Positions 2,004-21,451 are shown, numbered from the stretch's first letter. The stretch is 64,000 bases of DNA from an uncultured Flavobacteriaceae bacterium (GCA_947500525.1 CANMSH010000001.1:620001-684000); one strand, 5' to 3'. Notes: a model not told the origin generated them from the sequence alone. Program-made: numbers and translations.

Positions 2004-4838
2004 ATGTTGTATGTATTAAATCGAATTAAAAGAGAGTTAATTTTATTTTTGACGATATTAGTGTTTTTCCAAAACGCGTTTTGTCAAGAATTACCTCCTA
2101 TTGAGAATTTTTCAACAAAAGACTATCAGGCAGAAAATCAAAATTGGGCCATTTCTCAGACCTTGGACAAATTGATATATGTTGCCAACAATCGTGGGTT
2201 ACTAGAGTTTAATGGTGCAAAATGGAAGTTATATTCTTTACCTAATGAATCAATAGTACGATCTGTACATGCAGTTGAGAATCGCATTTATACGGGCAGT
2301 TTTATGGAGTTTGGATATTGGGAAAGAGATGATTTAGGAATTTTAAACTTCACTTCAATTTCTCAGGAAATGAATGTCCAAATGATTGAAGACGAAGAAT
2401 TTTGGCATATTTTAAATACTGATGATGGTATTGTCTTTCAATCTCTCAATAGAATTTATATTTATAATAAAGAGAGTAGTACTATTAGTATTATAAATTC
2501 GACAACAACAATCACCAATATATTCAAGGTAAACCAAACCATTTATTTTCAAAAAATAGGTGAAGGAATCTTTAAAATTGAAAATGGAAAAGACTCACTT
2601 GTCATAGATAGTCAACTAATCAAAGATAAAGATGTGATTAATATTTTTTCAGAGGATGATGGCTTACTCATTGTAACGCGTGACGATGGTTTTTATAGTT
2701 ATAAAAATGGCATTCTAGAAAAATGGGATATTGCGGCGAGTGAAAAATTGACTAAAATTAGTGTCTATAATGCCATTCGTTTAAGAGATAAGAGTTTTGC
2801 ACTTGCTACTATTTCAGATGGCCTAATTTACTTGGATAGTAAGGGTGAATTAGTGTACCATATTGATCAAAATAATGGAATATCTAACAACACCGTTTTG
2901 GCGGTTTTTGAAGATGACGATGAAACAATTTGGCTTGGCCTTGATAATGGTGTGAGTTATGTGAATCGAAAATCTCCTTTTCGAGAGTACATCGACGATA
3001 GTGGAATGTTAGGGAGTGTATATACATCTGCTATTGTTGGTGAAAAATTGTATTTAGGAACGAACCAAGGTTTGTTTTATAAAGAGTTAGGAGGTAATGA
3101 CGAATTCAAGTTTATTCAAGGAACACAAGGACAAGTATGGTTTTTGAAAGAAATACATAAAAAATTATTCTGTGGTCATAATTTAGGGACTTTTATTATT
3201 GATGAGGATAAGGCGCTCAAAATATCTAATATTCAAGGAACATGGAATATAGATTCAATAGATAATAAACCGAATCTATTGCTTCAAGGAAATTATGATG
3301 GATTGTATATTCTTGAAAAGAAAGAAAATAACTGGAAATTGAGAAATAAAATTGAAGGTTTTGATAACTCTTCAAGATTTTTCGAAGTTTTTGGAAATGA
3401 AATTTTCGTGAATCATGAGTATAAGGGAGTATTTAAATTAAATGTTGACAGTACTTTTAATAGAGCGACAAATGTCGCTATTGATACGCTAATAAAAGGT
3501 TCTAATTCGGGTATTATAAAGTATAAAAATACGTTGTTATACGCTTATGAAAAAGGAATATATAGGTATGATACTAGTAACAATAAGTTTAGAAAAGATA
3601 CCATTTTAAGTAAGGCATATACAAAAGAAGAATATATGTCAGGGAAACTAATTGTGGACGAAAATGAAAATTTATGGACTTTTACTGATACAAATGTCAA
3701 TTATATCTCGACAGGAGGATTAACGAACGTTCCGAAAATAAATAATATACCGTTAAAAAGAGAGGTTCGTAAAGGAGTTGTTGGATATGAGAATGTGTTA
3801 AATTTTGATGATAAAATCAAAAACACCTATTTGCTAGGAACTACTGCTGGATATATCTCAGTAAATCTAAACGCTCTTAAAGTAGAAAATTTTCAAGTTC
3901 ACATAGATGCTGTGGTTAAGGGAAGTAGTAAGAAAGATGCTGAAACAAAAGAAAGATATGACAAGAATATTGATGGTATATTTAAAAGTGAAGAAAATAA
4001 TCTAGAGTTTTCTTATTACACACCTAAGTATAAAAAATTTCTCAGTCCAAATTATCAATTTCAATTGTTAGGGATATACGACGATTGGAGTAATTGGTCA
4101 GAAAATGCAACAATCACTTTTGAAAATCTTCCATATGGTGATTACACCTTTCGAGTAAGAGCAAAAATTGGTAATACTTTATCGAATAATATTGCGTCAT
4201 ATACCTTTAAGATTGAAAAACCATGGTATATTTCTAATTCTATGATTGCTGTTTACATTTTAGGAGTTTTGTTATTTTCTATTTTTATGCATAATTTATA
4301 TAAGAGATATTACAGCAAACAACGCAAGAAACTAATAGAAAAAAACAAAAGAGAATTTGAATTAGCGCAGCTTCAAAATGAAAAGGAAATAATTAGAATT
4401 AAAAACGAACAATTAGAGGCAGATGTCAAAAATAAAAGTAAAGAATTGGCTGCTTCAACAATGAGTATTATTAAAAAGAATGAGTTGTTGACCACAATTA
4501 AAGGTGAACTTTATCATCTAAGTAACAATGATTCGGTAAAACCGGTTATAAATATTATCGACAAAAATTTAAGTCAAAATGATGATTGGGAATTATTTCA
4601 AGAAGCCTTTAATAATGCTGATAGTGGATTTTTGAAGAAAGTAAAAACCCTACACCCATCGCTATCTCCAAATGACCTTAAATTATGTGCATATTTAAGG
4701 TTGAATTTATCGTCTAAAGAGATTGCACCCCTCCTCAATATTTCATCAAGAAGTGTAGAAATAAAAAGATATAGATTACGAAAAAAACTTAATTTACTAA
4801 ACAAGGAGAATCTTGTAAACTATATTCTAGAGCTTTAA
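2004..4838 (+). CDS. Transmembrane one-component regulator: N-terminal propeller-type sensor, Y_Y_Y domain, TM helix, coiled coil, LuxR-type HTH
   Basis: Signal/TM start, propeller repeats (IWLGLDNGVSYVNR), Y_Y_Y-like FSYYTPKYKKFLSPNYQFQLLGIYDDWSNWSENATITFENLPYGDYTFRVRA, TM at about residue 740, C-terminal HTH LSSKEIAPLLNISSRSVEIKRYRLRKKL. Confidence 0.85.
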   Translation: MLYVLNRIKRELILFLTILVFFQNAFCQELPPIENFSTKDYQAENQNWAISQTLDKLIYVANNRGLLEFNGAKWKLYSLPNESIVRSVHAVENRIYTGSFMEFGYWERDDLGILNFTSISQEMNVQMIEDEEFWHILNTDDGIVFQSLNRIYIYNKESSTISIINSTTTITNIFKVNQTIYFQKIGEGIFKIENGKDSLVIDSQLIKDKDVINIFSEDDGLLIVTRDDGFYSYKNGILEKWDIAASEKLTKISVYNAIRLRDKSFALATISDGLIYLDSKGELVYHIDQNNGISNNTVLAVFEDDDETIWLGLDNGVSYVNRKSPFREYIDDSGMLGSVYTSAIVGEKLYLGTNQGLFYKELGGNDEFKFIQGTQGQVWFLKEIHKKLFCGHNLGTFIIDEDKALKISNIQGTWNIDSIDNKPNLLLQGNYDGLYILEKKENNWKLRNKIEGFDNSSRFFEVFGNEIFVNHEYKGVFKLNVDSTFNRATNVAIDTLIKGSNSGIIKYKNTLLYAYEKGIYRYDTSNNKFRKDTILSKAYTKEEYMSGKLIVDENENLWTFTDTNVNYISTGGLTNVPKINNIPLKREVRKGVVGYENVLNFDDKIKNTYLLGTTAGYISVNLNALKVENFQVHIDAVVKGSSKKDAETKERYDKNIDGIFKSEENNLEFSYYTPKYKKFLSPNYQFQLLGIYDDWSNWSENATITFENLPYGDYTFRVRAKIGNTLSNNIASYTFKIEKPWYISNSMIAVYILGVLLFSIFMHNLYKRYYSKQRKKLIEKNKREFELAQLQNEKEIIRIKNEQLEADVKNKSKELAASTMSIIKKNELLTTIKGELYHLSNNDSVKPVINIIDKNLSQNDDWELFQEAFNNADSGFLKKVKTLHPSLSPNDLKLCAYLRLNLSSKEIAPLLNISSRSVEIKRYRLRKKLNLLNKENLVNYILEL

Positions 4839-5063: not shown

Positions 5064-8000
5064 ATGAATACAATAAAAAACAATCTTCTAGTATTAGCAT
5101 TTTTAGTATCGATTGTAAGCACTTTCGCCCAAGTCGAAAAAGTGACAGTAGTAAATAATGATCAAGGATCCAAATTGATGGTAAATGGGAAAGAATTTAT
5201 CATTAATGGAATGAACTGGGATTATATTCCTATTGGAACGAATACGGTGAATGCTAATTTTTGGAAAAAGTCGGATGCTGTTATTAAAGTAGGATTAGAT
5301 GGAGAAATGGGACTCCTAAAAAATATGGGTGTAAATGTAATACGACAGTATACTGGAGTTCCTGCAAGATGGATTCAATATATCTATGAGAATTATGGAA
5401 TATACACCATGCTGAACGATTCATTCGGTCGTTACGGACTTACACTAGATGGTGTTTGGACACCAGTAACAGATTATGCCGATCCTAAAACTCAGAAGTA
5501 TCTCTTAGATGAAATAGATAAGCTAGTAAAAGAATATAAAAATACTCCGGGTCTCTTACTATACTTATTAGGAAATGAGAATAACTACGGACTATTTTGG
5601 GCAGGAGCGGAAACCGAGGATTTTCCTGATGATGAAGGTGAAAAGCAGTTCATAGGCGAAAAAAGAGGCCGACCAATGTATAGACTGATGAATGAAGCTG
5701 CGAAAAGAATTAAAGCCTCTGATATGTCACATCCGGTTGCAATCTGTAACGGAGATGTTTTATTCATAGATATAGTTGCCGAAGAATGCAAAGATGTTGA
5801 TATCTATGGAACAAATACATATAGAGGAGCCTCTTTTGGAGATATGTTTCAAGTGGTTAAGAATAAATTGAATAAACCGCTTATGTTCACTGAGTTTGGT
5901 GCTGACGCATATAGCGCAACGAAGAATGCAGAAGATCAAGAATCTCAGGCCTATTACATGGTAGAAAACTGGAAGGAAATCTATGAGAATGCAGCAGGAG
6001 TTGGAAAAGTTGGAAACTCTATAGGAGGTTTTACTTTTCAATTTAGTGATGGATGGTGGAAGTTCGGATTCGACGATAGAAAAAATGCCGATCAACATGA
6101 TAACAATGCATCGTGGTCAAATGGAGGCTACGCTCGAGATTTAGAAGGGAAAGAAAACAATATGAATGAGGAGTGGTTTGGTATTTGTGCCAAAGGCCCG
6201 ACGGATGCTCGAGGACTATATGAACTCTATCCTAGAGCGGCCTATTATGCCTTAAAAGAAGCGCATAAATTCAATCCGTATAAGGAAAATACAACAATAG
6301 AAACTGTTAAGAATCATTTCGATGGAATTGAATTGATGGAAGCGGTTCTAAAAGCTCGCGGTGACAAGGCTGCTCTTGAAGCTCAAAGTGGTGGAAAAAT
6401 TCGTATCAGTCAATTGAGAGCCGAATTTACCACGTTTAATACTGGAGGTAGTTTATTGACGACTCCAAGTACTGCAGACCCCGATGCCAATACGTTTCCA
6501 AATGAAACAGGTTTTGACCACATGCAATCCTATTATGTTGGAATTGAAGGAAGACCTTCTCCGAATATGAGAGCGAACGTAAACTTTAATATTCTCGGTA
6601 ATGTTGCAGCAAATCCCATTAATGAAATATTTTATGAAAATAGAGGACGTCCAGTTACGGTCGATGGAACAGATGGAGAAGTGAGACTAGCCGATAACAA
6701 TCGTATCCAGGTATATAATGCAGAATTCGAATGGAAAACCAAAGATGCAGATGTAAAAGGGTTCTATAGAGTGGGTCATAACCATTGGGGTTATGAAGGT
6801 GATTTTTTCGGATTATATCCTGAAGCGAATTATGGACCCAATTTGGATATTTATAATGGTGAAATTTTAGGACTTGAGGTTGATGGAAAAAGGTCATTTA
6901 AAGGCTTAAAAGCAGCTTTTGGTCCGCAACTTTGGTGGGGAGCGAACCCTGCTTTTTTGGTGAAGTATAGTAAAACATTTAAGCATATTGATATCACAGG
7001 TATTTTTCATGAAGATATTGATGAGCAAGGAGCTGCTGTTACTTCTATTGCGGTACCGGTACCGAAAACCAGAAGAGCAACCCTATATGCCAAAAGAAAA
7101 CTTGGAGCCTTTGGTTTAGAAGTAGGTGGTATTTGGGGAGGACAACCCTTAAATGGTCGTGAATTTCAATTCGTCCAAGGAGAACCTGGAAATTATATAG
7201 TCTATAATGACAAGATAAATTCAGATGATAATTGGGGAGCTAAGGCTAAAATTACGTTTCAAAAAGGCCTATTTAATTGGTACGCCTTAGGAGCAACCAC
7301 TGGTTTAGTTGCGAATGGAGGTGCAGATCAAACAAGAACATTTACAGGATGGAAATTAAAAGATAACGGTAGCGGTAACCAAAATAGTTTCCTTACCGGA
7401 TTTACATATACAATTGGCAATTTACAAATTGCACCTAACTTTTTATGGCAAGAGCCATTGGTAGATGCAATACCTAATGACGCAGGCGGACCAGCTAGAC
7501 TTAGAAATATTCAAGATGACCCATTTGCGGTTAGATCAAATAGAAAAACAACCGCTGGGGAGATATTACTCACTTATGATCCTACTCCAGGATCATGGTT
7601 TTACGAATGGGATAATGATCGCGCCGAAGACGCTAAATTTGCCTTCAACCTTGGTTTTGTCTATCGTCACTTACCTACAACTATGGATGCCGCTATAGGT
7701 TTCTTCGAGGGCTCTCGTGTAGGTGCTCCTTTTGCAAATTCGGTACCCGCACAAGATTTATGGGAGGGTAGCTCGCGTATTGTTTCTAAAATAAATCCTG
7801 ATTTGGCCTTTATTGCAAATCTATATGTTGGAAATCGTCAATCGAATGGAAGCGACGATAGAGTGATAAACAGAGCAGGAGGCGATTTAAGATTAATTTA
7901 TAAAAAGTGGAAGATAGAATCAGCAATCAAAATAAATGATTGGGGGCCGTATGATTATCATCGTGACTTTAACCTTACGTACCCAGTTCAATTTATGCTA

Positions 8001-8225
8001 GATATTTCTACTTCATTAGGAAAGCCAGATTGGTTCATTTTACCAGATACGAAAATAGGTATTCGCGGAACTTGGCGTTCATTAAATGAGTTTTCGCCGC
8101 GTTTCCTTCCAAATCAAGTAGATCCGAATGCATTCCCACCAATACCTGCATTAAGTCCCGTAGGATTTGATAATGGACAAGAATGGGAAATTAGAACGTA
8201 CGTACATATTAACATTGGAAAATAA
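5064..8225 (+). CDS. Clan GH-A (GH2-TIM-barrel/GH72-like) glycosidase domain fused to a C-terminal outer-membrane beta-barrel-like domain
   Basis: Signal peptide MNTIKNNLLVLAFLVSIVSTFAQ. Candidate acid/base in LLYLLGNENNYG and nucleophile in LMFTEFGADAY. From about residue 480 there is a run of short amphipathic Gly/aromatic strands (FGLEVGGIWGG, FLTGFTYTIGNLQIAPNFLWQ, KFAFNLGFVYRHL, WEIRTYVHINIGK). Confidence 0.75.
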   Translation: MNTIKNNLLVLAFLVSIVSTFAQVEKVTVVNNDQGSKLMVNGKEFIINGMNWDYIPIGTNTVNANFWKKSDAVIKVGLDGEMGLLKNMGVNVIRQYTGVPARWIQYIYENYGIYTMLNDSFGRYGLTLDGVWTPVTDYADPKTQKYLLDEIDKLVKEYKNTPGLLLYLLGNENNYGLFWAGAETEDFPDDEGEKQFIGEKRGRPMYRLMNEAAKRIKASDMSHPVAICNGDVLFIDIVAEECKDVDIYGTNTYRGASFGDMFQVVKNKLNKPLMFTEFGADAYSATKNAEDQESQAYYMVENWKEIYENAAGVGKVGNSIGGFTFQFSDGWWKFGFDDRKNADQHDNNASWSNGGYARDLEGKENNMNEEWFGICAKGPTDARGLYELYPRAAYYALKEAHKFNPYKENTTIETVKNHFDGIELMEAVLKARGDKAALEAQSGGKIRISQLRAEFTTFNTGGSLLTTPSTADPDANTFPNETGFDHMQSYYVGIEGRPSPNMRANVNFNILGNVAANPINEIFYENRGRPVTVDGTDGEVRLADNNRIQVYNAEFEWKTKDADVKGFYRVGHNHWGYEGDFFGLYPEANYGPNLDIYNGEILGLEVDGKRSFKGLKAAFGPQLWWGANPAFLVKYSKTFKHIDITGIFHEDIDEQGAAVTSIAVPVPKTRRATLYAKRKLGAFGLEVGGIWGGQPLNGREFQFVQGEPGNYIVYNDKINSDDNWGAKAKITFQKGLFNWYALGATTGLVANGGADQTRTFTGWKLKDNGSGNQNSFLTGFTYTIGNLQIAPNFLWQEPLVDAIPNDAGGPARLRNIQDDPFAVRSNRKTTAGEILLTYDPTPGSWFYEWDNDRAEDAKFAFNLGFVYRHLPTTMDAAIGFFEGSRVGAPFANSVPAQDLWEGSSRIVSKINPDLAFIANLYVGNRQSNGSDDRVINRAGGDLRLIYKKWKIESAIKINDWGPYDYHRDFNLTYPVQFMLDISTSLGKPDWFILPDTKIGIRGTWRSLNEFSPRFLPNQVDPNAFPPIPALSPVGFDNGQEWEIRTYVHINIGK

Positions 8226-8235
8226 CACGATTAAG

Positions 8236-9636
8236 ATGAAGAATATAAAACACTTAAATTTTAAAAGCCTGTTTTTGATATTGGTTTTTATGACGATGAT
8301 AAGTTGCGAGAGAGAACTCTCTAATGAAGCTGAATTCGCCACTTTTTCTAAAGCAGGAGAGATTTTTACAGATAATTTTGTAGGATTAGGAACAAATTTT
8401 TTCTTCCCTTTTATAAGTGATGGAGCGAAGGCTGACGTCTTCTCTGTGGATGAAGATGTGGCGTACGAAAGTTCAGCTTCTATTCGAATAGATGTACCAA
8501 ATGCTAATGATCCAGGCGGAAGTTTTGCGGGAGCCATTTTTATTATTGATGGTTCAGGTAGAAATCTTACAGAGTTCGACGCTTTAACGTTTTGGGCCAA
8601 AGCCACACAAGGTGTACCAAACATTACAATGGGATTTGGTGAAAGTAAATTCCAAGTAGCGAGAAATGACATTAGCTTCTCTACCAATTGGGTGAAATAT
8701 ATAATTCCAATACCGGATGCTTCCAAACTTACAGAAGAAAAAGGGATGCTTTTCTTTTCTGCGGGAACAGCGAATACAGATGGCTTTGGATATACTTTTT
8801 GGCTTGACGAAATAAAATTTGAAAAATTAGGGACCATCGCACAGGCTCAACCTGCTATGCTGAATGGTGTAGATGTTGTACAAGATGCGTTTATAGATAT
8901 ACCAATTCAATTGACAGGGCTTTCGCAAACGTTGAATGCAGCTGGTCAAAATATAACAGTTACAGGTGCACCATCTTATTTTGATTTTAAATCTACAGAT
9001 ATTGATGTGGCGAGAGCAAATGAGTTAGGTTTAGTATCTGTTGTTGGAACGGGCGAAGCTACTATCTCAGCTACATTGGCAAATGTAGCTGCTAAAGGTT
9101 CACTAGCTCTCAATGTAATTGGTTCTTTCGACTTTGCACCCAAACCACCAGAACGAAACGCTAATGACGTAATATCAGTATTTAGTGATGCATATACGAA
9201 TATCGCTGTAGATTATTTTAACGGATTTTTTGCACCCTTTCAAACTACTCTCGGAGGAGCCCCTCCTTTAGATGTGAATGGCGATGCCGTAATTAATTAT
9301 AAGGACTTGAATTTTGTAGGGATAGGAACTTTTCAAGATGTCCCTTCAATCAATACTACGGAAATGACACATCTTCATATCGATATAAAAGTCAATGAGA
9401 GCATAGATACAGGAGATTTTATTACAATACAATTGCTTAACTCAGTTGGTAACAACGAAACATCTGGTGAGGTAAGATTCGAAGCCGATACGTTTACGAC
9501 AGATGAATGGGTTAGTTTGGATATTCCGCTTGCCGATTTTGGTCTTGCCGATCGTTCTCAAATAGGACTATTGTTTTTCATATCAGATGCTACAATCTCG
9601 GATATATTCGTAGATAACATCTATTACTATAAATAG
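8236..9636 (+). CDS. Surface-type lipoprotein with carbohydrate-binding-like beta domains (PUL accessory)
   Basis: Lipobox LVFMTMISC. In-frame ATG at 8236 gives MKNIKHLNFKSLF..; the listed start at 8167 lies inside the upstream gene. Beta-sandwich-like repeats ending in IFVDNIYYYK. Confidence 0.7.
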   Translation: MKNIKHLNFKSLFLILVFMTMISCERELSNEAEFATFSKAGEIFTDNFVGLGTNFFFPFISDGAKADVFSVDEDVAYESSASIRIDVPNANDPGGSFAGAIFIIDGSGRNLTEFDALTFWAKATQGVPNITMGFGESKFQVARNDISFSTNWVKYIIPIPDASKLTEEKGMLFFSAGTANTDGFGYTFWLDEIKFEKLGTIAQAQPAMLNGVDVVQDAFIDIPIQLTGLSQTLNAAGQNITVTGAPSYFDFKSTDIDVARANELGLVSVVGTGEATISATLANVAAKGSLALNVIGSFDFAPKPPERNANDVISVFSDAYTNIAVDYFNGFFAPFQTTLGGAPPLDVNGDAVINYKDLNFVGIGTFQDVPSINTTEMTHLHIDIKVNESIDTGDFITIQLLNSVGNNETSGEVRFEADTFTTDEWVSLDIPLADFGLADRSQIGLLFFISDATISDIFVDNIYYYK

Positions 9637-9654: not shown

Positions 9655-10503
9655 ATGAACAAAATGAATAAAAATAGTATTTATAACCGCATAAAAGTTG
9701 TCTTTATACCTGCCTTTCTTTTTATATCACTTACAATAGTTCAAAGTTGTAATACAGATGAAACGCAAACAGTTACGAATTTTAGAACGTTGGTCATGGC
9801 TGATGAATTCGATAATGAAGGAGCTCCGAACAGTTCTTTCTGGACTTTCGATATCGGTAGAGGTCCGAATGGTGATGGATGGGGAAACCAAGAACTTCAG
9901 TATTATACAAATCGTACAGAAAATGTAAAGGTTGAAAATGGCTTTCTTTTAATTACAGCTCAGGAAGAATCTTTCGAAGGTGCCTCTTATACATCTGCAA
10001 GATTGAAGACAGAGGGTCTATTTGAACAACAATATGGACGTTTTGAAGCTAGAATAAGATTACCATATGGTAAAGGTTTATGGCCAGCATTTTGGCTGTT
10101 GGGTAATGACTGTGATACGAACATTTGGCCAAATTGTGGTGAAATTGATATCATGGAATATCTTGGAGATTCCCCAACAGTGGTATTCGGAAGTGCTCAT
10201 GGGCCTGGATATTCAGCTGGTGAAGCAGAAACAAAAGAATATTCTTTAGTCAACGATAGATTCGATACAGGATTTCACATTTTCGGAATAGAATGGGGTC
10301 CAAATTACATCAATTACTATGTAGATGATGTCTTATACAACCAAATAACTCCAGAAGATGTTTCTGGTGAATGGGTTTTTGATCACCCATTTTATATCAT
10401 AATGAATGTTGCCGTAGGAGGAAGTTTCCCTGGATCACCTGATTCAGAAACAGTATTTCCACAAACGATGGTCGTTGATTATGTACGTGTATATCAACAA
10501 TAG
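9655..10503 (+). CDS. GH16 beta-glucanase (laminarinase-like) lipoprotein
   Basis: Lipoprotein start (SLTIVQSC); GH16 catalytic motif GEIDIMEYLG; WPAFWLLG; ends VFPQTMVVDYVRVYQQ. Confidence 0.92.
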   Translation: MNKMNKNSIYNRIKVVFIPAFLFISLTIVQSCNTDETQTVTNFRTLVMADEFDNEGAPNSSFWTFDIGRGPNGDGWGNQELQYYTNRTENVKVENGFLLITAQEESFEGASYTSARLKTEGLFEQQYGRFEARIRLPYGKGLWPAFWLLGNDCDTNIWPNCGEIDIMEYLGDSPTVVFGSAHGPGYSAGEAETKEYSLVNDRFDTGFHIFGIEWGPNYINYYVDDVLYNQITPEDVSGEWVFDHPFYIIMNVAVGGSFPGSPDSETVFPQTMVVDYVRVYQQ

Positions 10504-10531: not shown

Positions 10532-13500
10532 ATGAAAAAATTACTCAAAAGAACTAAGATACTATGGTTATTCGTTCTTGCAATATCCTTTGTAAGTTGT
10601 GAGAATGACGATGATGCTGTTTTGCCAGAACTCGTGGCAAGTTTTGCGCATACTATAAATGAAGATACAGGAGCAGTGTCATTTATAAATTTATCAGAAA
10701 ATGCCGATACCTATACTTGGAATTTCGGTGATGGAACATCTTCGACGGAGATTAACCCAATTAGAAGTTTTCCAACAGGTACATATACCATAAAGCTTAC
10801 TGCCGAAAATGCAGCTGGGGCTAGTGGAACTTTTGAGGACCAAATAGTGATTAACATACCGCTACCCATAAATATTCCTGTAACATTCGATGATCCGAAC
10901 GTAAATTATGATGTCACTACATTTAATGGAGCTTCTTTTATGATTGTTGATAATCCAGATGCTTCTGGTACAAATACGAGCACTTCAAAAGTAGGAGCGA
11001 TTACAAATGTTGGTGCCGCTTTTGAGGGTATTTTCTTCGACTTAGGAATGGGAATAGATTTGACAACGTTAAAATCTGTACAAGCTAATTTTTGGTCTGA
11101 TGCGACAGTAGATGTATTGCTTAAATTAGAAGAGGGTACAGGTGCAGATATTGAAACCACTGCAACTCACGGAGGAACAGGTTGGGAGATAATTACATTT
11201 AATTTTACTTCAGATGCTAGTTACTCTAGATTCACTTTGTTTGTTGACGGCCCAGGTACTGCTGCAGGTACATTTTACATAGATGATATTGAACAAATTG
11301 AAACACCACCGGCGACTAGTGGATGTTCTGAAACTCCAATAGCGGCAACAGCGCTTCCTCTAGACTTTGAAGGTTGTGCAACGTTCCCTTCATCTGATAA
11401 CTTTGGAGCAGGAATTACTTCTGAACTAGCGGTAAACCCTTCTAAAACAGGAATTAATACATCAGATTTTGTATTAAAGGTAGACAAACCTACAGGATCA
11501 GACTTTTTCGCTGGAATTCAAAACACCTTTGCTGAAAATTTCGATTTAACAACAACAAATATTTTTAAAGTAAAAGTATACTCTACAAAGGCTAATGTAG
11601 TCTTGAGATTTGAATTATTAGCGAATCCAAATGATGGAAGTATTGGAAACCCAGCTCCTGTCTTTGTGACCGTTCCTACGGCAAATGAATGGACGGAGGT
11701 TGAAGTAAACTTTACTGGATTGCCAGCGGGTCCAACAGCATATAATCAATTGGTAATAAAACCAGACAATGATGAATCTGATAGTGCAATTACAGCGGGC
11801 GGAACCTATTATTTCGATGACCTTACTTTAAATGAGAATGATCCAGGAACTACATTCGACAGTGGTTTATTAACAAACGGTGATTTTGAAAGTGGTGCGG
11901 CACCTTGGACGATTGGCGTGGGTTCAGATCCAGTACCAGTGGTGACAGATGGAGGTAATAGTTTTTATTCAGTAGATGTTACTGCAGCCGGAAATCCCTT
12001 TGATGTTAATATGAGTCAAAAACTAGAAATAGTAGAAAACTCAACGTACAAGTTGACTTTTGAAGCATGGTCTGATCGTGATAGATCTTTAGTTGCTGGA
12101 ATCGGACTTAGTGGTGGCAGTTTTGCAAATACTACCGAAACAGTGAATTTAACTACTGCGAAAACAACATATGAATTGACTTTAACTGCGTCTGGATTTG
12201 GAGCTACTGATGCGCGTGTTTTATTCGATTCAGGTGCAGAAGTAGGTGTCGTAAATATCGATAATGTATCACTTGTTTTAGACACTGGCTCAGGAACCGA
12301 TACCGAAGCTCCTGTAATTACGCTAAATGGAGACGCAACGGTAACCATAATTGTTGGAGAAACGTTTACCGATCCCGGAGCACAAGCTACTGATAATGTA
12401 GATGGTGATCTTTCAGGAAACATTACAGTTGGTGGAGACACTGTTGATACCAATACAATTGGAACATATGTTATTACCTATGATGTAAGTGATGCCGCAG
12501 GTAATGCCGCGACTCAAGTCTCTAGAACTGTAAATGTTGAAGCACCGGCGCCATTTAATAGCGGTTTATTAAGCAACGGTGATTTTGAAAATGGTGCTGC
12601 TCCTTGGACGATTGGAGTTGGAACAGATCCTGTACCAGTTGTTACAGATGGAGGAAATAGTTTTTATTCAGTTGATGTTACAAGTGCTGGTAACGCTTTT
12701 GATGTGAATATGAGTCAGAAATTAGAGATAATTGAGGGTTCTACATATACGCTGACATTTGATGCTTGGTCTGATAGATCAAGATCCATTGTGAGCGGAA
12801 TTGGACTGAGTGGTGGAAGTTTCGCAAATACAGCTGAAACCGTAAATATAACTACAACTAGAGATAACTACACCTTATCACTTACCGCGAATGGATTTGG
12901 AGCTACTGATGCGCGTGTTTTATTCGATTCTGGAGCAGAAATAGGTGTCGTGAATATTGATAATGTATCTCTTACTTTAGACGGAGGTACTACAGGTACC
13001 GGAGGATGTTCTGCTACACCAGTAGCAGCCACTGAACTTCCATTAGATTTTGAAAGTTGTCAAACATTCGTTTCATCTTTTTCAAGTATTGGAGATGGAG
13101 GTGTTACCCCAAGTTTAGATGTAAATCCATCTAAATCTGGTATTAATACTTCAGATAATGTATTAAAAGTTGTAAAAGCTAGTGGTATTAATCGTTGGGG
13201 AGGTGTTCAAAACTCTTTTCCAGCTGGTGTTATTGACATTACGACCAAAGTATTTAAGGTAAAAGTATATTCAAGTGTTGCAGACGTAACCTATAGATTT
13301 GAATTAGCATTAGATCCGCAAACAGATCCTGTTACGGGTAATCCTGCGCCTCAATTCGTACAGGTTTCTGGAGGTGCCAATGAATGGGTAGAATTAGAAT
13401 TCACTTTTATTAATTTACCTGCAACACCCACAACCTACAATCAGTTTGTAATTAAACCAGATAATCCTGATGGATCAGATGGTGAGGTAACTACAGAAGA

Positions 13501-13537
13501 ACGCGTATTTTATTTTGATGACTTGCGTCTTGAGTAG
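10532..13537 (+). CDS. PKD/CBM multidomain surface glycan-binding lipoprotein
   Basis: Lipobox VSCENDDDA; PKD (YTWNFGDGTSS...GTYTIKLTAENAAG); duplicated CBM4-like module; DUF5011-like domain (PVITLNGDATVTIIVGETFTDPGAQATDNVDGD); duplicated GCSxTPxAATxLPLDFExC module. Confidence 0.82.
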   Translation: MKKLLKRTKILWLFVLAISFVSCENDDDAVLPELVASFAHTINEDTGAVSFINLSENADTYTWNFGDGTSSTEINPIRSFPTGTYTIKLTAENAAGASGTFEDQIVINIPLPINIPVTFDDPNVNYDVTTFNGASFMIVDNPDASGTNTSTSKVGAITNVGAAFEGIFFDLGMGIDLTTLKSVQANFWSDATVDVLLKLEEGTGADIETTATHGGTGWEIITFNFTSDASYSRFTLFVDGPGTAAGTFYIDDIEQIETPPATSGCSETPIAATALPLDFEGCATFPSSDNFGAGITSELAVNPSKTGINTSDFVLKVDKPTGSDFFAGIQNTFAENFDLTTTNIFKVKVYSTKANVVLRFELLANPNDGSIGNPAPVFVTVPTANEWTEVEVNFTGLPAGPTAYNQLVIKPDNDESDSAITAGGTYYFDDLTLNENDPGTTFDSGLLTNGDFESGAAPWTIGVGSDPVPVVTDGGNSFYSVDVTAAGNPFDVNMSQKLEIVENSTYKLTFEAWSDRDRSLVAGIGLSGGSFANTTETVNLTTAKTTYELTLTASGFGATDARVLFDSGAEVGVVNIDNVSLVLDTGSGTDTEAPVITLNGDATVTIIVGETFTDPGAQATDNVDGDLSGNITVGGDTVDTNTIGTYVITYDVSDAAGNAATQVSRTVNVEAPAPFNSGLLSNGDFENGAAPWTIGVGTDPVPVVTDGGNSFYSVDVTSAGNAFDVNMSQKLEIIEGSTYTLTFDAWSDRSRSIVSGIGLSGGSFANTAETVNITTTRDNYTLSLTANGFGATDARVLFDSGAEIGVVNIDNVSLTLDGGTTGTGGCSATPVAATELPLDFESCQTFVSSFSSIGDGGVTPSLDVNPSKSGINTSDNVLKVVKASGINRWGGVQNSFPAGVIDITTKVFKVKVYSSVADVTYRFELALDPQTDPVTGNPAPQFVQVSGGANEWVELEFTFINLPATPTTYNQFVIKPDNPDGSDGEVTTEERVFYFDDLRLE
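11855..12283 (+). repeat. Internal CBM-like module, copy 1 (429 bp)
   Basis: FDSGLLTNGDFESGAAPWTIGVG...VVNIDNVSLVLD; highly similar to 12554-12982, same length. Confidence 0.9.
12554..12982 (+). repeat. Internal CBM-like module, copy 2 (429 bp)
   Basis: FNSGLLSNGDFENGAAPWTIGVG...VVNIDNVSLTLD; shares ggatttggagctactgatgcgcgtgttttattcgattc exactly with copy 1. Confidence 0.9.
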
Positions 13538-13606: not shown

Positions 13607-13638
13607 CAGCAATACAATTGAAAGAACATAGAGTTCAC

Positions 13639-16600
13639 ATGTTAATGGAGGATATCAAAATTAATAAAGACGTCACACTTGAACATTTAAAAATTGATAA
13701 TGAAGAATTCTTCAAAATATCAAATAATGATCAAATGCGACCATTTTTTATGAGCATCGTTAGTAATTCAAATCACTGGATGTTCGTAGCAAGTAATGGA
13801 GGAATAACTGCGGGTCGAAAAAATGCAGAGTTTTCTCTTTTTCCATATTATACAGACGATAAAATAACCGAAACTGCTGATATTACAGGAAGCAAATCTA
13901 TTTTTCAAATAGAAAAATTAGGCAAAACATATATGTGGGAACCTTTTTCGGAAAGATTCGAAGGTCGTTTTCAAATTACGAGAAACCTTTACAAGAATGT
14001 ATATGGTAATAAAATTTTATTTGAGGAGATTAACCATGATTTGGATCTTATTTTTCGCTATCAATGGAACTCAAGTGACCATTTTGGGTTTGTAAAAAAA
14101 AGCCAATTGATTAATAGTGACACCACAAACGTTAACATCACAATTTTAGATGGTATTCAAAATATTTTACCTTATGGGGTTAGTAGTAATTTACAGAATG
14201 CTAGCAGTAATTTGGTAGACGCATACAAACGAAGTGAATTAGAAGAAACAACAGGACTAGGTATTTTTGCATTAAGTGCTATAATTGTAGATAAAGCAGA
14301 ACCTAGTGAAGCGCTCAAAGCCAATGTAGTTTGGTCAACAGGTCTGAAGAATGCGACTTACTTACTATCCTCACAACAGCTTAAGAAATTTAGAAATCAA
14401 CAGCTAATTGTACAAGAAATTGATGTGAAGGCTGAGAAAGGAGCATATTTTGTTCATTCTGAAATTAGTTTAACATCAAATTCTGATAAACAATGGATGT
14501 TTATAGCTGATGTAAATAAAAACCATGCTGCAATTGCAGAGCTGTCAAAAACTATAAATGAAGAGGTTAAGCTCTTTGAAAAGGTTCTTAATGATGTTGA
14601 AAGTGGCACGCAAAGTTTAATTATGTTAAACGCTGCGTCGGACGGATTACAGTTATCGGCCGATGTTTATAAAGATAAAAGACACTTTGCGAATACATTA
14701 TTTAATATCATGCGTGGTGGGATTTTCGATGATAATTATAAAATAGAACGCTGGGATTTTAAAAACTACCTTCAAAAGGCGAATAAAAAAGTTGCTCGAA
14801 ATAATCAGGAAATAGTTGATGGTTTACCAGAAGTTTTTTCAATGTTTAAATTGAAAGAAGTAACAGAAGGTTCGAATGATAAAAATTTTAGACGCTTATG
14901 TCTAGAATATATGCCACTTAAGTTTAGTCGTCGTCATGGCGATCCTAGCCGTCCTTGGAACAAGTTTTCGATTAATACGAGAAGTGAAATCGATGGATCA
15001 AAAATACTAGATTACGAAGGAAATTGGCGTGATATTTTTCAAAACTGGGAAGCATTGGCACTATCCTATCCTGAGTTTATTGAGAATATGATCCATAAGT
15101 TTTTAAACGCAACAACCTTTGATGGATATAACCCATATAGGGTTACCAAAGATGGTTTTGATTGGGAAGCTATTGAACCTGATGACCCTTGGAGTTATAT
15201 TGGTTATTGGGGGGATCATCAAATCATATATTTATTGAAGTTCTTAGAATTTTCGGAAAACTTAACACCTAAAAAATTAGAGAGTTTTTTTAATGAAGAT
15301 GTATTTGTTTATGCAAATGTTCCATATCAAATTAAGTCATATCAAGAAATTTTAAAAAATTCAAAAGACACAATAAACTTTGACAAAGAATTAGATCAGA
15401 AAATACGGAATGAACGCAATGAAATAGGAGCAGATGCGGCATTATTAAAAGATGAAAGTCAGACTACGGTGACGGTTAATTTCATTGAAAAAATACTAGC
15501 GACGATTCTTGCTAAATTATCAAATTTCATCCCAGAGGGTGGTATTTGGATGAATACACAAAGACCAGAATGGAATGATGCGAATAACGCCCTTGTTGGT
15601 AACGGCGTATCTATGGTGACATTATATTATTTACGTCGCTTCTTTGATTTTTTTGAGAACGTATTTACGACTTCGAAAACAGATAAGATTGAAATTTCTA
15701 AAGAGCTAGTAAGTTTCTTTAAATCGGTGGTTTCAACGTTCGATGAGTATCAACATATCTTATCTGGAACTTTTAATGATGTACAACGAAAAGAAGTTTT
15801 AGATGCCCTTGGGAAAGCAGGTAGTGATTATAGGAATCGTATTTATATAGATGCTTTTTCTGGCAGTAAAGAAGTCTTAACAATAAGTGAATTAAATCAT
15901 TTTGTCCGAATTACTTTAAAGTATTTAGAACATTCTATTGCAGCGAACAAACGTTCTGATAATTTGTACCATGCTTACAATTTGATGACCATAAATAGAG
16001 ACGAGGTTTCTATTTCATATTTAGATGAAATGTTAGAGGGTCAAGTCGCTGTACTAAGTTCAAAACATCTAACCTCGCAAGAAGTGTTGGCTGTGTTAGA
16101 TGCTATGAAAAAAAGTAATTTATTCAGGAGAGATCAGTACAGCTATTTGCTATATCCTTATAAGAATTTAAAAGGTTTTATGGCTAGAAATATAATCGCC
16201 CTAAAATCTTTTGAGCGATCTCATTTATTGCAACAACTTATAGTTGATGGGAATACACAGATTATTGAAAAAGATGTTAAAGGAGTTTACCATTTTAACG
16301 GAAACTTTAGAAATGCAACAGATCTAAAAAAGGCTCTAAATGAACTTCCAAGTGCTTACAAGAAACAGCTTGTGAAAGAAGAGGATAAAGTTTTGGAACT
16401 ATTTGAAGAAGTGTTTAATCACAAGGCGTTTACTGGGCGTTCAGGTACTTTTTATGGTTATGAAGGTCTAGGTTCTATTTATTGGCACATGGTTTCTAAA
16501 CTGCAACTAGCAGTTCAGGAGTGTTGTTTAAAAGCAATTAATGATAAAGAAAGTGAACAGATAATAGGAAGGTTATTAGAGCATTATTATGAAATTAACG

Positions 16601-17082
16601 AAGGCATAGGAGTGCACAAATCACCAGAACTTTATGGCGCTTTTCCTACTGATCCTTATTCACACACTCCTGCAGGAAAAGGAGTACAGCAACCTGGAAT
16701 GACCGGTCAAGTCAAAGAAGATATTTTAAGTCGATTTGGAGAACTTGGAGTGTTTGTGAAAGAAGGGAAACTGTATTTTGACCCATGTTTATTGCGAAAA
16801 GAGGAATTCTTAAAGGTATCAACAAAGTTTAACTATGTGAATATTTTTAGAGAAAAACAGACGATACTGTTACCCGAAAAATCGATGTGTTTTACGTATT
16901 GCCAAGTACCAATAGTTTATAAAATAACGGGTACAGCATTAATGGAGGTAAAATTCAAGAATAACAGGTCTCGAACATTCGATAGTTTAAGTTTAGATCT
17001 AAACACTAGTAGAGAAATATTTAATCGTTCTGGAAAAGTTATGCAGATTAATGTTCATATAAAAATGAGTGATTTAAATTAA
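13639..17082 (+). CDS. Cytoplasmic clan GH-Q beta-glucan phosphorylase (GH149-like; GH94/GH161 are alternatives)
   Basis: About 1150 aa, no signal peptide; IGYWGDHQIIYLLKFLE, GTFYGYEGLGSIYWHMV, YGAFPTDPYSHTPAGKGVQQPGMTGQVKEDILSRFGELG. ORF track starts at TTG 13618; ATG at 13639 or 13645 is more plausible. Confidence 0.75.
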   Translation: MLMEDIKINKDVTLEHLKIDNEEFFKISNNDQMRPFFMSIVSNSNHWMFVASNGGITAGRKNAEFSLFPYYTDDKITETADITGSKSIFQIEKLGKTYMWEPFSERFEGRFQITRNLYKNVYGNKILFEEINHDLDLIFRYQWNSSDHFGFVKKSQLINSDTTNVNITILDGIQNILPYGVSSNLQNASSNLVDAYKRSELEETTGLGIFALSAIIVDKAEPSEALKANVVWSTGLKNATYLLSSQQLKKFRNQQLIVQEIDVKAEKGAYFVHSEISLTSNSDKQWMFIADVNKNHAAIAELSKTINEEVKLFEKVLNDVESGTQSLIMLNAASDGLQLSADVYKDKRHFANTLFNIMRGGIFDDNYKIERWDFKNYLQKANKKVARNNQEIVDGLPEVFSMFKLKEVTEGSNDKNFRRLCLEYMPLKFSRRHGDPSRPWNKFSINTRSEIDGSKILDYEGNWRDIFQNWEALALSYPEFIENMIHKFLNATTFDGYNPYRVTKDGFDWEAIEPDDPWSYIGYWGDHQIIYLLKFLEFSENLTPKKLESFFNEDVFVYANVPYQIKSYQEILKNSKDTINFDKELDQKIRNERNEIGADAALLKDESQTTVTVNFIEKILATILAKLSNFIPEGGIWMNTQRPEWNDANNALVGNGVSMVTLYYLRRFFDFFENVFTTSKTDKIEISKELVSFFKSVVSTFDEYQHILSGTFNDVQRKEVLDALGKAGSDYRNRIYIDAFSGSKEVLTISELNHFVRITLKYLEHSIAANKRSDNLYHAYNLMTINRDEVSISYLDEMLEGQVAVLSSKHLTSQEVLAVLDAMKKSNLFRRDQYSYLLYPYKNLKGFMARNIIALKSFERSHLLQQLIVDGNTQIIEKDVKGVYHFNGNFRNATDLKKALNELPSAYKKQLVKEEDKVLELFEEVFNHKAFTGRSGTFYGYEGLGSIYWHMVSKLQLAVQECCLKAINDKESEQIIGRLLEHYYEINEGIGVHKSPELYGAFPTDPYSHTPAGKGVQQPGMTGQVKEDILSRFGELGVFVKEGKLYFDPCLLRKEEFLKVSTKFNYVNIFREKQTILLPEKSMCFTYCQVPIVYKITGTALMEVKFKNNRSRTFDSLSLDLNTSREIFNRSGKVMQINVHIKMSDLN

Positions 17083-17100: not shown

Positions 17101-18393
17101 ATGAAGAAGACATCATGCTATTTCATTTTAATGATGATTACTCTATTTACGGTATCATGTAATGAAACTAAAAAAGAAAAAAATACAGCAAAGCAAAAAA
17201 CCAAAACAGAAGTGACTGCTAAAGATATATTAGGAAATCCAAATTATTTAGCCATCTCATATGGTGGCTATCGTAAATCAACCCGAGATATTCAACCAAC
17301 AATAAAAGAATTGAAGGAAGATATGAAACTTCTTCAGGCGATGAATATCAAAATGATTAGAACGTATAATGTACAATTAGCGCACGCCTCAAATGTATTA
17401 AAAGCTATTGCTGAGTTGAAACAGGAGGATAGCAATTTTGAAATGTATATGATGTTGGGCGCTTGGATTGATTGTAAAAATGCGTGGACAGATCAACCGC
17501 CAAATCATGAATTAGAAAGTGGCAATAATGAAGCTGAAATTAAACGAGCTGTCATCTTAGCAAATCAATATCCTGATATTGTCAAAGTTATTGCGGTTGG
17601 CAATGAAGCCATGGTGAAATGGGCAACGAGCTATTTCGTACAACCATGGGTGATCTTAAAGTGGGTGAACTATTTACAAGATTTAAAAGAGAAGGATGAA
17701 TTATCAAAAGACCTTTGGATTACAAGCTCAGATAATTTCGCTTCTTGGGGAGGTGGTGACACTGAATACCATGTTGAGGATTTGAATAAATTGATAAAAG
17801 CGGTCGACTTTATTTCCATGCATACCTATCCAATGCATGATACGCATTACAATCCACAGTTTTGGGGCGTACTAGAGGATGAAAAAGAGATGTCTGATAT
17901 AGAAAAGATTGAGAAAGCCATGGAACGTTCCTTAGAATATTCTAAAGCGCAGTATGAAAGTGTGAAACAATACATGAATAGTGTAGGCGCGAATAAACCG
18001 ATTCATATTGGGGAAACTGGTTGGGCGAGCTATTCGAATGGTCATTACGGTAATGATGGTTCTAAGGCTACTGATGAATTTAAAGAAGCATTATTCTATA
18101 CCCTAATGCGTAATTGGACAAACGAAAACAAAATTGCCTGTTTTTACTTCGAAGCTTTTAATGAACCGTGGAAAGATGCCGCCAATCAAGGAGGATCAGA
18201 AAACCACTTCGGATTGTTTACAGTAGATGGTGAAGCGAAATACGTTGTTTGGGATCTAGTAGATGACCAAACTTTTGACGGATTAACACGAGGAGGGAAT
18301 CCTATTACAAAAACCTACGATGGGAATAAAGAGTTATTACTCAAAGAAGTCTTAGTCCCTACTATTAAGGACTCATTAGCTGTTAGTTTTTAG
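17101..18393 (+). CDS. GH17-family glycoside hydrolase lipoprotein
   Basis: Lipobox LFTVSC; NIKMIRTYNVQ, VIAVGNEAMV, IHIGETGWASYS (GH17 acid/base and nucleophile contexts). Confidence 0.85.
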   Translation: MKKTSCYFILMMITLFTVSCNETKKEKNTAKQKTKTEVTAKDILGNPNYLAISYGGYRKSTRDIQPTIKELKEDMKLLQAMNIKMIRTYNVQLAHASNVLKAIAELKQEDSNFEMYMMLGAWIDCKNAWTDQPPNHELESGNNEAEIKRAVILANQYPDIVKVIAVGNEAMVKWATSYFVQPWVILKWVNYLQDLKEKDELSKDLWITSSDNFASWGGGDTEYHVEDLNKLIKAVDFISMHTYPMHDTHYNPQFWGVLEDEKEMSDIEKIEKAMERSLEYSKAQYESVKQYMNSVGANKPIHIGETGWASYSNGHYGNDGSKATDEFKEALFYTLMRNWTNENKIACFYFEAFNEPWKDAANQGGSENHFGLFTVDGEAKYVVWDLVDDQTFDGLTRGGNPITKTYDGNKELLLKEVLVPTIKDSLAVSF

Positions 18394-18403
18394 GATTATA
18401 ATT

Positions 18404-19894
18404 ATGTTGAAGAAAACCTGTTTAATCATATTAATTTGTTTTATGTCAAGTGCCTGTTCAAAAAAGGAACAACATTTAAACGTCGAGGTATTCGAAACTT
18501 CTGCCAATGGGAATAAGCTAACGCCTGTGACCAAATTTTCTAAAAATGAAGGCGCAACTTTAGTTAAATTATTTCCTGCCAAAGAGAAACAAACAATAAC
18601 AGGTTTTGGAGGTTCTTTTACCGAATCTTCGGCGTACTTACTGAATAAATTGGGGGAAGAAAACCGAAAAAAAATAATAGATGCCTATTTCGGACCTAAT
18701 GGTGCTAAATATTCTTTAACAAGAACACATATGAATTCTTGTGACTTTTCATTAAGTCAGTATTCGTATGCACCGACTAAAGATAAAGAGCTAAGTGATT
18801 TCTCCGTAAAGGAAGACAAAGAAGATATCATTCCTTTTATCAAAGACGCAATGGCCGCTTCGGAAGACGGATTTAAGATACTTTCTTCTCCTTGGACAGC
18901 TCCACCATGGATGAAAGATAATAATAGTTGGGTTGGAGGTAAATTGCTTCCAGAATATTATGATACTTGGGCGTTGTTTTTCTCAAAATATGTAGATGCG
19001 TATAAATCGGAAGGTATTGATATATGGGGATTTACAGTAGAAAATGAGCCTCTCGGAAATGGGAACAATTGGGAAAGTATGCATTATACACCTGACGAAA
19101 TGACCAACTTTGTTCAGAATCATTTGGGACCAAAACTAGCAGCAGATGGAAAAGGAGAGGTAAAAATTTTAGGTTATGATCAAAACAGAGAGCATTTAAA
19201 AGAATGGATAAATGCTCAATATAAAGATGAAGAGACTTCAAAATTTTTTGATGGTACTGCGATACATTGGTATGCGAGTACCTATGATTATTTTGCTGAA
19301 GAATTACAATATGCACACGAAAAAGCTCCACAAAAGTACTTGATACAATCTGAAGCCTGTGTGGATGCCGAAAAACCAAAATGGCAAGATGACGCTTGGT
19401 ATTGGAGCAAAGAAGCAACAGATTGGGGTTGGGATTGGGCGCCAGAAAAAGATAAACCGATGCACCCAAAATACGTGCCTGTCTATAGATATGCACGAGA
19501 TATTATTGGTTGCTTGAATAATTGGGTTGATGGATGGGTAGATTGGAATATGGTACTAGATACGAATGGAGGGCCTAATTGGTTCAAAAATTGGTGTGTA
19601 GCTCCCGTGATTGTGAACCCTGAAAAAGATGAGGTGTATTTTACACCCTTGTACTACACATTGACACATTTTAGTAAATATATACGTCCTAGAGCCAAAA
19701 TAATTGAAGTTGAAAATTCAGATGATGAACTTTTGGTCACGGCAGCAAAGAATGAGAGCGGTTCCATAGTTGTAGTGGTATTGAATCAGGGCAAAAAAGA
19801 AAAGTATTTCTCAATTCAGCTAGAGGAGAAATATAAAAGCGTAAGTATTAACCCTCAAGCTATTCAAACTATTGTAATAGCTTATAAAAACTAA
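18404..19894 (+). CDS. GH30 beta-glucanase/glucosidase lipoprotein
   Basis: Lipobox MSSAC; TITGFGGSFTESSAYLLNKL, WTAPPWMK, GFTVENEPLG, YLIQSEACVD; typical GH30_1/3 motifs. Confidence 0.92.
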   Translation: MLKKTCLIILICFMSSACSKKEQHLNVEVFETSANGNKLTPVTKFSKNEGATLVKLFPAKEKQTITGFGGSFTESSAYLLNKLGEENRKKIIDAYFGPNGAKYSLTRTHMNSCDFSLSQYSYAPTKDKELSDFSVKEDKEDIIPFIKDAMAASEDGFKILSSPWTAPPWMKDNNSWVGGKLLPEYYDTWALFFSKYVDAYKSEGIDIWGFTVENEPLGNGNNWESMHYTPDEMTNFVQNHLGPKLAADGKGEVKILGYDQNREHLKEWINAQYKDEETSKFFDGTAIHWYASTYDYFAEELQYAHEKAPQKYLIQSEACVDAEKPKWQDDAWYWSKEATDWGWDWAPEKDKPMHPKYVPVYRYARDIIGCLNNWVDGWVDWNMVLDTNGGPNWFKNWCVAPVIVNPEKDEVYFTPLYYTLTHFSKYIRPRAKIIEVENSDDELLVTAAKNESGSIVVVVLNQGKKEKYFSIQLEEKYKSVSINPQAIQTIVIAYKN

Positions 19895-19900
19895 CTAACT

Positions 19901-21451
19901 ATGTCACAATCTGTAAAAGTTCCCATTGGTCAAAAAGCCACCTTCGGAGCAGGTCATTTTATTTTAAATATTTTACCTGGAACACTAGGTGTGTTTATTC
20001 AATTCTTTTTGTTAACGGCGTGGGGTGTTGACCCTCTTTGGGCTGGACTTTTAGGGGGATTACCTAGAATATTCGATTCAATAACAGATCCAATAATGGG
20101 TTTCATTTCTGATAATACAACATCGAAATGGGGAAGAAGACGACCTTATATTTTTATTGGAGCAATTATAAGCGGTATCTTATTCTTTTTGATGTGGCAA
20201 ATTGATGATAATGCTTCACAATCATACATTATATGGCATGTGATGGTTGTTCAATTACTTTTTCTTATTGGAAATACGATGTTTGCGACACCATTGGTTG
20301 GCTTAGGTTATGAAATGACGTCAGATTACAACGAGCGAACTAGAATCATGGCTTTTTCAAATACAATGGGACAAATTGCTTGGATGATAGTTCCTTGGTT
20401 GTACGTAATTATACCAGACACAAATACCTTTAATACCCAAACCGAAGGAGTACGAACAATGGCTCTTATTGTAGGTATCATGTGTATAGTTTTCGGAATT
20501 TTACCGGCAATTTTCAATAAGGGTATTGACTCTGCCAATATGGGAAATAGGAAAGAAATCAATTTTAAAACGTTGGCAGCAAATATGAAAGATTTATGGG
20601 CAGGGATATTGCAGGTCTCTAAAAATAAACCTTTTATGAAATTATGTGGGGCGACATTTTTAGTGTTTAATGGATTTCAATTAGTGGCGGCCTTTGGTGT
20701 TTTTATTATAGTTTTTTACATGTATAATGGTAGTTATGAGCTAGCGGGCACTTGGCCTGCTTGGTTTAATACAATTAATGCCATGATTACCGCCTTTATT
20801 GTTATTCCTATTATTTCGAGAATGGCAAGAAAATGGGGTAAGAGAAAAGCATTCATAATTTCGACCATTTTATCTATTCTAGGATATGTTTTAAAATGGT
20901 GGGGATTTGACAAAGAATTAAACAGCCAATTTAGTCAAACTGGTTTAGGTAAAAGCATGAATTCAGCTATAGGGTCTATTTTCGAATCTTTGAATCCTTT
21001 TTTAGAAAGCGTTGGTATGTCATGGTTTACGATTGATCCAGGTAGTGAAATACCATGGTTAATATTTCTACCAATCCCGCTGTTTGCATTTGGAATGGGA
21101 GGATTATTTACATTAATGATGTCTATGACAGCTGACGTATGCGATTTAGATGAGTTAGAAAATGGAATGCCGCGTAAAGAAGGTACTTTTGGAGCAATTT
21201 ATTGGTTGATGGTAAAAATTGGTCAATCGATAGCACTTGTTTTAGGAGGAGTGATATTGAGTATTGTTGGTTTCGACCCTAATGCTACCGAGCAGTCAAT
21301 AGAAACTATGAATAACTTGAGGATAGCAGATATATTAGTTCCATCGCTTACCGCCGGACTTGCCGTTTGGGTAATGTGGAAATATAGTTTGAATGAGTCA
21401 AGAGCCAAAGAAATAAAAGAAGAATTGGTAAAACGTAGAGGAGAATTGTAA
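19901..21451 (+). CDS. MFS / GPH (MelB-like) sugar:cation symporter
   Basis: FDSITDPIMGFISDNTTSKWGRRRPYIFIGAI signature, about 12 TM segments. Confidence 0.92.
   Translation: MSQSVKVPIGQKATFGAGHFILNILPGTLGVFIQFFLLTAWGVDPLWAGLLGGLPRIFDSITDPIMGFISDNTTSKWGRRRPYIFIGAIISGILFFLMWQIDDNASQSYIIWHVMVVQLLFLIGNTMFATPLVGLGYEMTSDYNERTRIMAFSNTMGQIAWMIVPWLYVIIPDTNTFNTQTEGVRTMALIVGIMCIVFGILPAIFNKGIDSANMGNRKEINFKTLAANMKDLWAGILQVSKNKPFMKLCGATFLVFNGFQLVAAFGVFIIVFYMYNGSYELAGTWPAWFNTINAMITAFIVIPIISRMARKWGKRKAFIISTILSILGYVLKWWGFDKELNSQFSQTGLGKSMNSAIGSIFESLNPFLESVGMSWFTIDPGSEIPWLIFLPIPLFAFGMGGLFTLMMSMTADVCDLDELENGMPRKEGTFGAIYWLMVKIGQSIALVLGGVILSIVGFDPNATEQSIETMNNLRIADILVPSLTAGLAVWVMWKYSLNESRAKEIKEELVKRRGEL

Follow-up and report, generated by a model that had tools for sequence, protein, structure and literature searches.

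A large share of the carbon fixed in the sea is laminarin. PULs without SusC and SusD are counted as incomplete subtypes (PMC6298971), and the locus described here would fall among them: it lies in a 64,000-nucleotide stretch of DNA from an uncultured Flavobacteriaceae bacterium (GCA_947500525.1, CANMSH010000001.1:620001-684000, hereafter the window), its genes are those of beta-glucan breakdown, and no SusC or SusD is present within window positions 1-30,000. How, then, could the glucan cross the outer membrane? The candidate considered here is a single gene of this locus, in which a glycosidase is joined to a predicted outer-membrane beta-barrel.

Glycosidase and predicted outer-membrane barrel in one chain

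The fusion gene (5064..8225, + strand) is intact and single copy in the source genome, its translation giving an uninterrupted 1053-aa ORF with an ATG start and no internal stop. Judged by sequence, the chain opens with a type I signal peptide (residues 1-22, 5064..5129, + strand, ending in ...STFAQ ahead of V), and a lipobox scan of 79 fusion homologs returned no convincing case, the single regex match lying within the hydrophobic core. The earlier note on this DNA had correctly described this ORF and its signal peptide, and had proposed counting homologs with the same fusion. A genome-wide scan locates relatives in at least 582 loci, the 80 best of which are colinear over almost its entire length (68-93% identity), and the full-length homologs examined, from across Bacteroidota, share 55-93% identity over the full chain. 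Since so many loci encode relatives, and the examined full-length ones are colinear, the fusion is not a chance ORF.

The N-terminal half is a clan GH-A TIM barrel (~residues 25-400, 5136..6263, + strand), as the same note had suggested from two Glu-containing motifs. The first, GNENN, holds the putative acid/base Glu172 (in GNEN, 5577..5579, + strand), and the second, TEFGAD, the putative nucleophile Glu277 (5892..5894, + strand), the pair expected after strands 4 and 7 of the TIM fold in this clan. Both are invariant in 58 full-length homologs, as are R94, N171 and Y253, and N171, E172 and E277 remain so among 24 catalytic relatives whose identity falls as low as 24%. For the whole protein, Pfam yields PF02836 (Glyco_hydro_2_C) alone (E = 2.6e-7), and NCBIfam one sub-threshold beta-galactosidase model and nothing else. 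Foldseek on the model ranks GH158 and GH157 endo-beta-1,3-glucanases first (E about 2e-11), and a PDB search with a profile of the 24 relatives finds GH158 best (9oro, 5e-13), then GH2 enzymes and GH157 (1e-9), the GH158 and GH157 matches being of low identity and that to GH158 partial. The catalytic half thus belongs to clan GH-A, and fold, profile and gene context suggest that it probably acts on beta-1,3-glucan. A helical piece that closes the enzyme or serves as linker (residues 405-440, 6276..6383, + strand) forms helices in the models and is kept in catalytic-only relatives.

Two other family assignments were considered and rejected. For GH2, PF02836 matches but the N-terminal jelly-roll and Ig-like domains were not detected, and there is no room for them because the TIM barrel begins ~20 residues past the signal peptide. 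For GH72, the protein of the window has no match to PF03198, which is matched by three of the 24 catalytic relatives (best 1.9e-5), and GH158, GH2 and GH157 score better; the link to GH72 transglycosylases raised in the earlier note is therefore weak.

The C-terminal half (residues 447-1048, 6402..8207, + strand) is predicted to form a 26-strand outer-membrane beta-barrel. AF2 gave pLDDT 64.5 and pTM 0.44 for the full chain, and pLDDT 63.9 and pTM 0.61 for the barrel alone with 81 homologs, with ~26 strands of 6-13 residues each; these models drew on the 80 best of the at least 582 loci, and the close similarity of these to one another probably keeps model confidence down. In Foldseek, all of the top 50 matches of this half are outer-membrane barrels (E down to 2e-7), namely TonB-dependent receptors, LptD or similar (BtuB, PfeA, OprC, Cir, LptD and others). 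Against known barrels the TM-score is only about 0.33, so that for the predicted structure the outer-membrane barrel class is clear from Foldseek but the exact geometry is not.

Strand statistics point the same way. Hydropathy alternation along the strands is 2.65, against 1.51 +/- 0.21 in permuted strands (none of 2000 permutations as high), and connectors average 21 aa from odd to even strands versus 4.8 aa, mostly 2, from even to odd (p = 1.4e-4, on a strand list drawn up by the analyst in which two small hairpins were counted as loop). Read as an outer-membrane barrel, this parity would place both termini on the short-turn, periplasmic side, which would also make the enzyme domain face the periplasm. 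This parity, like the partner lipoprotein and the catalytic-only relatives described below, had escaped the earlier note. Amphipathic strands, short turns towards the periplasm and long loops outside, the hallmarks of outer-membrane beta-barrels, are thus all predicted, and the models, Foldseek and the strand statistics bear out the strand-rich, amphipathic, barrel-like half noticed from the sequence; a soluble beta-sandwich, the contrary outcome named in advance, did not appear. The barrel, its count of ~26 strands and its periplasmic termini are supported by modelling of moderate confidence.

This barrel has no sequence relative in Pfam (searched with the single chain) or in the PDB (searched with a profile). 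Membership among SusC or TonB receptors was rejected, as Pfam up to an E-value of 1 gives PF02836 alone and in the model the first strand follows the enzyme too closely for a TonB-receptor plug to fit in. Autotransporter membership was rejected as well, given ~26 strands over 600 residues versus a 12-strand translocator.

A beta-glucan locus, a partner lipoprotein and the absence of SusD

All genes of the locus lie on the + strand, in the order regulator, fusion, lipoprotein, GH16, PKD/CBM, GH149, GH17, GH30, MFS, GH17 and GH16. The Y_Y_Y/LuxR-type regulator (2004..4838) is found upstream of the fusion in 59 of 86 loci. Beyond the partner lipoprotein (8236..9636) come a laminarinase-type GH16 lipoprotein (9655..10503; PF00722, laminarinases as best PDB matches, CNTDET after Cys) and a PKD/CBM4_9 lipoprotein (10532..13537; CENDDD after Cys), both probably at the surface; a GH149 beta-1,3-oligoglucan phosphorylase with an uncertain start codon (13618..17082; 6hq6, 1632 bits); a GH17 lipoprotein (17101..18393); a GH30 lipoprotein without an acidic export signal after Cys (18404..19894); an MFS inner-membrane sugar transporter (19901..21451; PF13347); a GH17 without signal peptide (21466..22374); and the second GH16 (22447..23214). 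The earlier assignment to a beta-glucan locus is thus supported by these neighbours. At the borders, a lipoprotein that looks glucoamylase-type (window 23211-24545) shares 4 bases with the end of the preceding gene, the second GH16, and a wax-ester-synthase/DGAT-like gene (window 1-1680, - strand) runs off the window start; a gene of the latter type also adjoins the fusion locus in two other loci (L016 and L038).

The GH17 lipoprotein matches 6fcg end to end (E = 4e-208) and is an ortholog of Formosa FbGH17A; we take 6fcg to be FbGH17A, i.e., FORMB_24720, from the account of the GH17A crystal structure in PMC6246565. In Formosa, the FbGH17A locus includes a GH16 (FORMB_m24690), which was detected on laminarin only, a GH30 (24730) and an MFS-GH17 (24740; PMC6246565). 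A MAG labelled Formosa sp. Hel1_33_131 carries the fusion, lipoprotein, GH16, PKD and GH149 genes in the same order, with no SusC/D upstream, and from this gene order and the GH17 match we infer that its locus is the published Formosa laminarin locus. A laminarin PUL of Muricauda (PMC13188888) lists LuxR, GH2, GH16, GH149, GH17, GH30 and MFS, and the strains named there (2012CJ35-5 and 176CP4-71) are those of two of our loci (L054 and L053, respectively). Given the same gene set and the same strains, the "GH2" of that paper is very probably the fusion protein, whose barrel half goes unmentioned in the text consulted.

The partner is a 466-aa lipoprotein with CBM11-like, Big_2 and second CBM-like parts. 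It is the downstream neighbour of the fusion in 86 of 86 loci, and where the loci were read, the next large ORF mostly begins within ~25 bp of the fusion stop or overlaps it. Most of these lipoproteins continue from the lipid cysteine as C-E-R-(D/E)-x-S-(D/E)-(D/E), an acid-rich stretch that resembles the export signals known for Bacteroidetes lipoproteins (PMC5080379), consistent with a surface location. Membership in SusD was rejected, as 34 homologs match Big_2, Big-like, CBM11 or CBM30 and nothing else, one chance match aside. Across 396 Bacteroidota genomes, the full-length lipoprotein occurs in precisely the 33 that have the barrel and in none of the 363 others; it adjoins the fusion in 32 of the 33 and lies ~10 kb off in one (G144). 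A profile search of ten genomes with the enzyme but without an intact barrel found none. P-values on these counts assume independent genomes, an assumption that does not hold, and repeated changes on the tree (below) are the better argument. The lipoprotein is an obligate co-occurring partner of the barrel fusion. Its role may be SusD-like or that of a surface-glycan-binding protein, presumably in contact with the barrel.

Matches to the fusion were found in 58 of the 396 genomes. Thirty-three have the fusion itself (one split by contig ends), down to ~55% identity, ten have the catalytic part only or mainly, two of these being decayed fusions, and the other matches are weak and to other GH-A proteins. 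Wherever the barrel is present it is fused to the enzyme; no stand-alone barrel was found in the 396 genomes, barrel-only pieces being contig breaks or decayed fusions. Most of the ten barrel-less enzyme loci keep GH149, GH17, GH30 or MFS. In the catalytic-domain tree, well-supported branches force five switches between the fused and catalytic-only forms. In-place loss of the barrel is visible in the two decayed fusions: one retains ~100 barrel residues followed by stops (G119; L128, 2181-3620), the other has stops within the fusion gene that break the barrel (G235; L136, 1358-3210), and both genomes, while largely keeping the enzyme part, are without the partner lipoprotein. A lipobox is present in several catalytic-only forms (e.g., L131, L133, L134), versus type I signals on the fusions, so that tethering of the enzyme to a membrane, by lipobox or by barrel, seems to be kept in both forms. 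Separately, two distant catalytic relatives of ~330-350 aa with a lipobox (24-27% identity; L137, 5148-6203, and L140, 4553-5545) adjoin GH149 and GH17, and may represent a second family of enzymes associated with beta-glucan loci.

How far does the fusion stand apart from SusC/SusD? In the source genome, a single SusD is encoded on the same contig, ~127 kb from the fusion locus, and probes for beta-glucan enzyme genes near the nine SusD genes of this genome gave no such enzyme, only a 112-aa PKD-like match. The fusion was originally described as the first gene of a locus without SusC/D: the absence stands for window positions 1-30,000, the regulator precedes the fusion, and as a general description the absence fails, since at least 17 of 86 fusion loci have a SusD upstream within the flank. 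In the other direction, four barrel genomes that are 99-100% complete (G051, G066, G144, G256) encode the fusion and lipoprotein, with GH16 and MFS at the locus, and have neither PF07980 nor PF14322 SusD; no SusC was found at these loci and their flanks. SusC/D is thus not required, as had been claimed. Two genomes with the catalytic-only form (G243, L134; G333, L135) have neither barrel nor any SusD, hence the enzyme needs neither. We dropped the idea of the barrel as a strict SusC/D replacement, because at least 17 loci have both and the barrel may work there in addition to SusC/D; it does not depend on SusC/D, yet does not always substitute for it. In three loci of SusD-less genomes, the Y_Y_Y/LuxR regulator is replaced by a probable ROK/MarR-like one (by sequence; L176 16036-17310, L177 12775-14028, L179 14726-16027), which sits between the lipoprotein and the GH16.

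A candidate route for laminarin and its competitors

We favour, with some reserve, a reading in which the fusion imports beta-glucan across the outer membrane independently of SusC/D, carrying a glycosidase of its own, with the lipoprotein as its dedicated partner. The surface lipoprotein would capture laminarin above the barrel while the surface GH16 shortens the polymer, and the glucan chain would pass through a large, plug-less barrel of ~26 strands. At the periplasmic mouth, the fused enzyme would cut the emerging chain, and this consumption would give the passage its direction. The GH17 and GH30 would complete laminarin breakdown in the periplasm, the MFS would bring the oligosaccharides into the cell, and GH149 and the second GH17 would act there. 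A more far-reaching version, which we advance tentatively and with less confidence, holds that such proteins form a widespread undescribed importer class, i.e., a plug-less 26-strand channel that has a periplasmic beta-1,3-glucanase built in and that an obligate non-SusD surface lipoprotein gates or feeds. Marine Bacteroidota would then take up laminarin independently of SusC/D, perhaps of TonB too, with hydrolysis at the exit as the driving force.

A different use of the same parts would be surface display, in which the barrel serves solely as anchor or autotransporter-like translocator while the glycosidase cuts laminarin outside the cell, beside other importers. Classical autotransporters such as EstA carry an N-terminal enzyme on a C-terminal barrel and expose it at the surface, and some fusion loci also have SusC/D. 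We nevertheless consider this unlikely, as the barrel has ~26 predicted strands rather than 12, connector parity predicts that N- and C-terminus are periplasmic, and a mere anchor would leave unexplained both the obligate separate surface lipoprotein and the presence of the fusion in SusD-less genomes.

Somewhat less likely still is a closed or plugged barrel that conducts no glucan and, as a utilisome scaffold, gathers enzyme and lipoprotein around another importer. SusCD utilisomes do assemble glycoside hydrolases and binding lipoproteins round one barrel (PMC7618045), and our models do not show a pore; the SusD-less genomes, however, offer no SusCD core for such a scaffold, and no SusC was detected at their loci. 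We give little credence to a GH72-like glucanosyltransferase that modifies or exports beta-glucan instead of importing it: some catalytic relatives match PF03198, and Muricauda has a transglycosylating GH17 in a locus of this type (PMC11005184), but the protein of the window lacks this match, GH158, GH2 and GH157 score better, and the locus is catabolic, with a laminarin-induced Formosa counterpart. Finally, a soluble beta-rich C-terminal half, to which middling model confidence might lend itself, is very unlikely in view of the uniformly outer-membrane structural matches, the OMP-like amphipathic strands with tight turns alternating with long loops, and the stand-alone enzyme forms that do without this half.

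If the importer reading is correct and the fusion provides the missing outer-membrane step, laminarin loci without SusC/D are complete, and counts of laminarin users based on SusC/D overlook many organisms. Bacteroidota would then have a second glycan-import route, with cutting and passage in one protein, and the barrel would stand as a new outer-membrane barrel family without known relatives and with a ready-made partner.

Relation to known systems

In a limited search of open-access PMC text, no paper turned up that describes a large outer-membrane barrel joined to a glycosidase. The enzyme half shares its TIM fold, catalytic pair and beta-glucan context with GH158 and GH157 endo-beta-1,3-glucanases (6pal, 9oro, 9fz9), which are soluble and have no barrel fusion, and which it matches at low identity with a partial profile alignment. 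It shares TIM-barrel homology with GH2 (PF02836), the label that PMC13188888 very probably gives to this gene, whereas the other GH2 domains were not detected in the fusion. The barrel half has its best structural matches in LptD and TonB-dependent receptors, with which it shares a size class; it differs from them in its low TM-score and in having no sequence similarity, plug or LptE-type partner.

As a fusion of enzyme and barrel in one chain, the protein resembles enzyme autotransporters of the EstA type, with an N-terminal enzyme and a C-terminal outer-membrane barrel, but these have 12 strands versus ~26 and the predicted side of the enzyme is opposite. The Formosa MFS-GH17 protein FORMB_24740 (PMC6246565) is likewise a transporter-CAZyme fusion from the same type of laminarin locus; it is an inner-membrane protein built of MFS and GH17, whereas the fusion of the window is predicted in the outer membrane and has an unrelated enzyme.

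The closest functional parallel is SusC/SusD and the SusCD utilisome (PMC7618045), in which an outer-membrane barrel, a surface lipoprotein and a glycoside hydrolase are likewise co-encoded in a glycan locus, and the fusion system most likely works in outline like such a utilisome. Unlike SusC, its barrel lacks a plug, a carboxypeptidase-like domain and a TonB family match, with no sequence relation found, and in contrast to SusCD, enzyme and barrel are one chain and the partner is a CBM/Big_2 protein rather than SusD. Overall, the fusion looks like an undescribed way of glucan uptake without SusC/SusD in many laminarin-using marine bacteria. It would be more than a variant of outer-membrane uptake if TonB-independent import were shown; as it stands, we rate it as a probable outer-membrane glycan-uptake assembly of a known kind, built from an undescribed barrel family.
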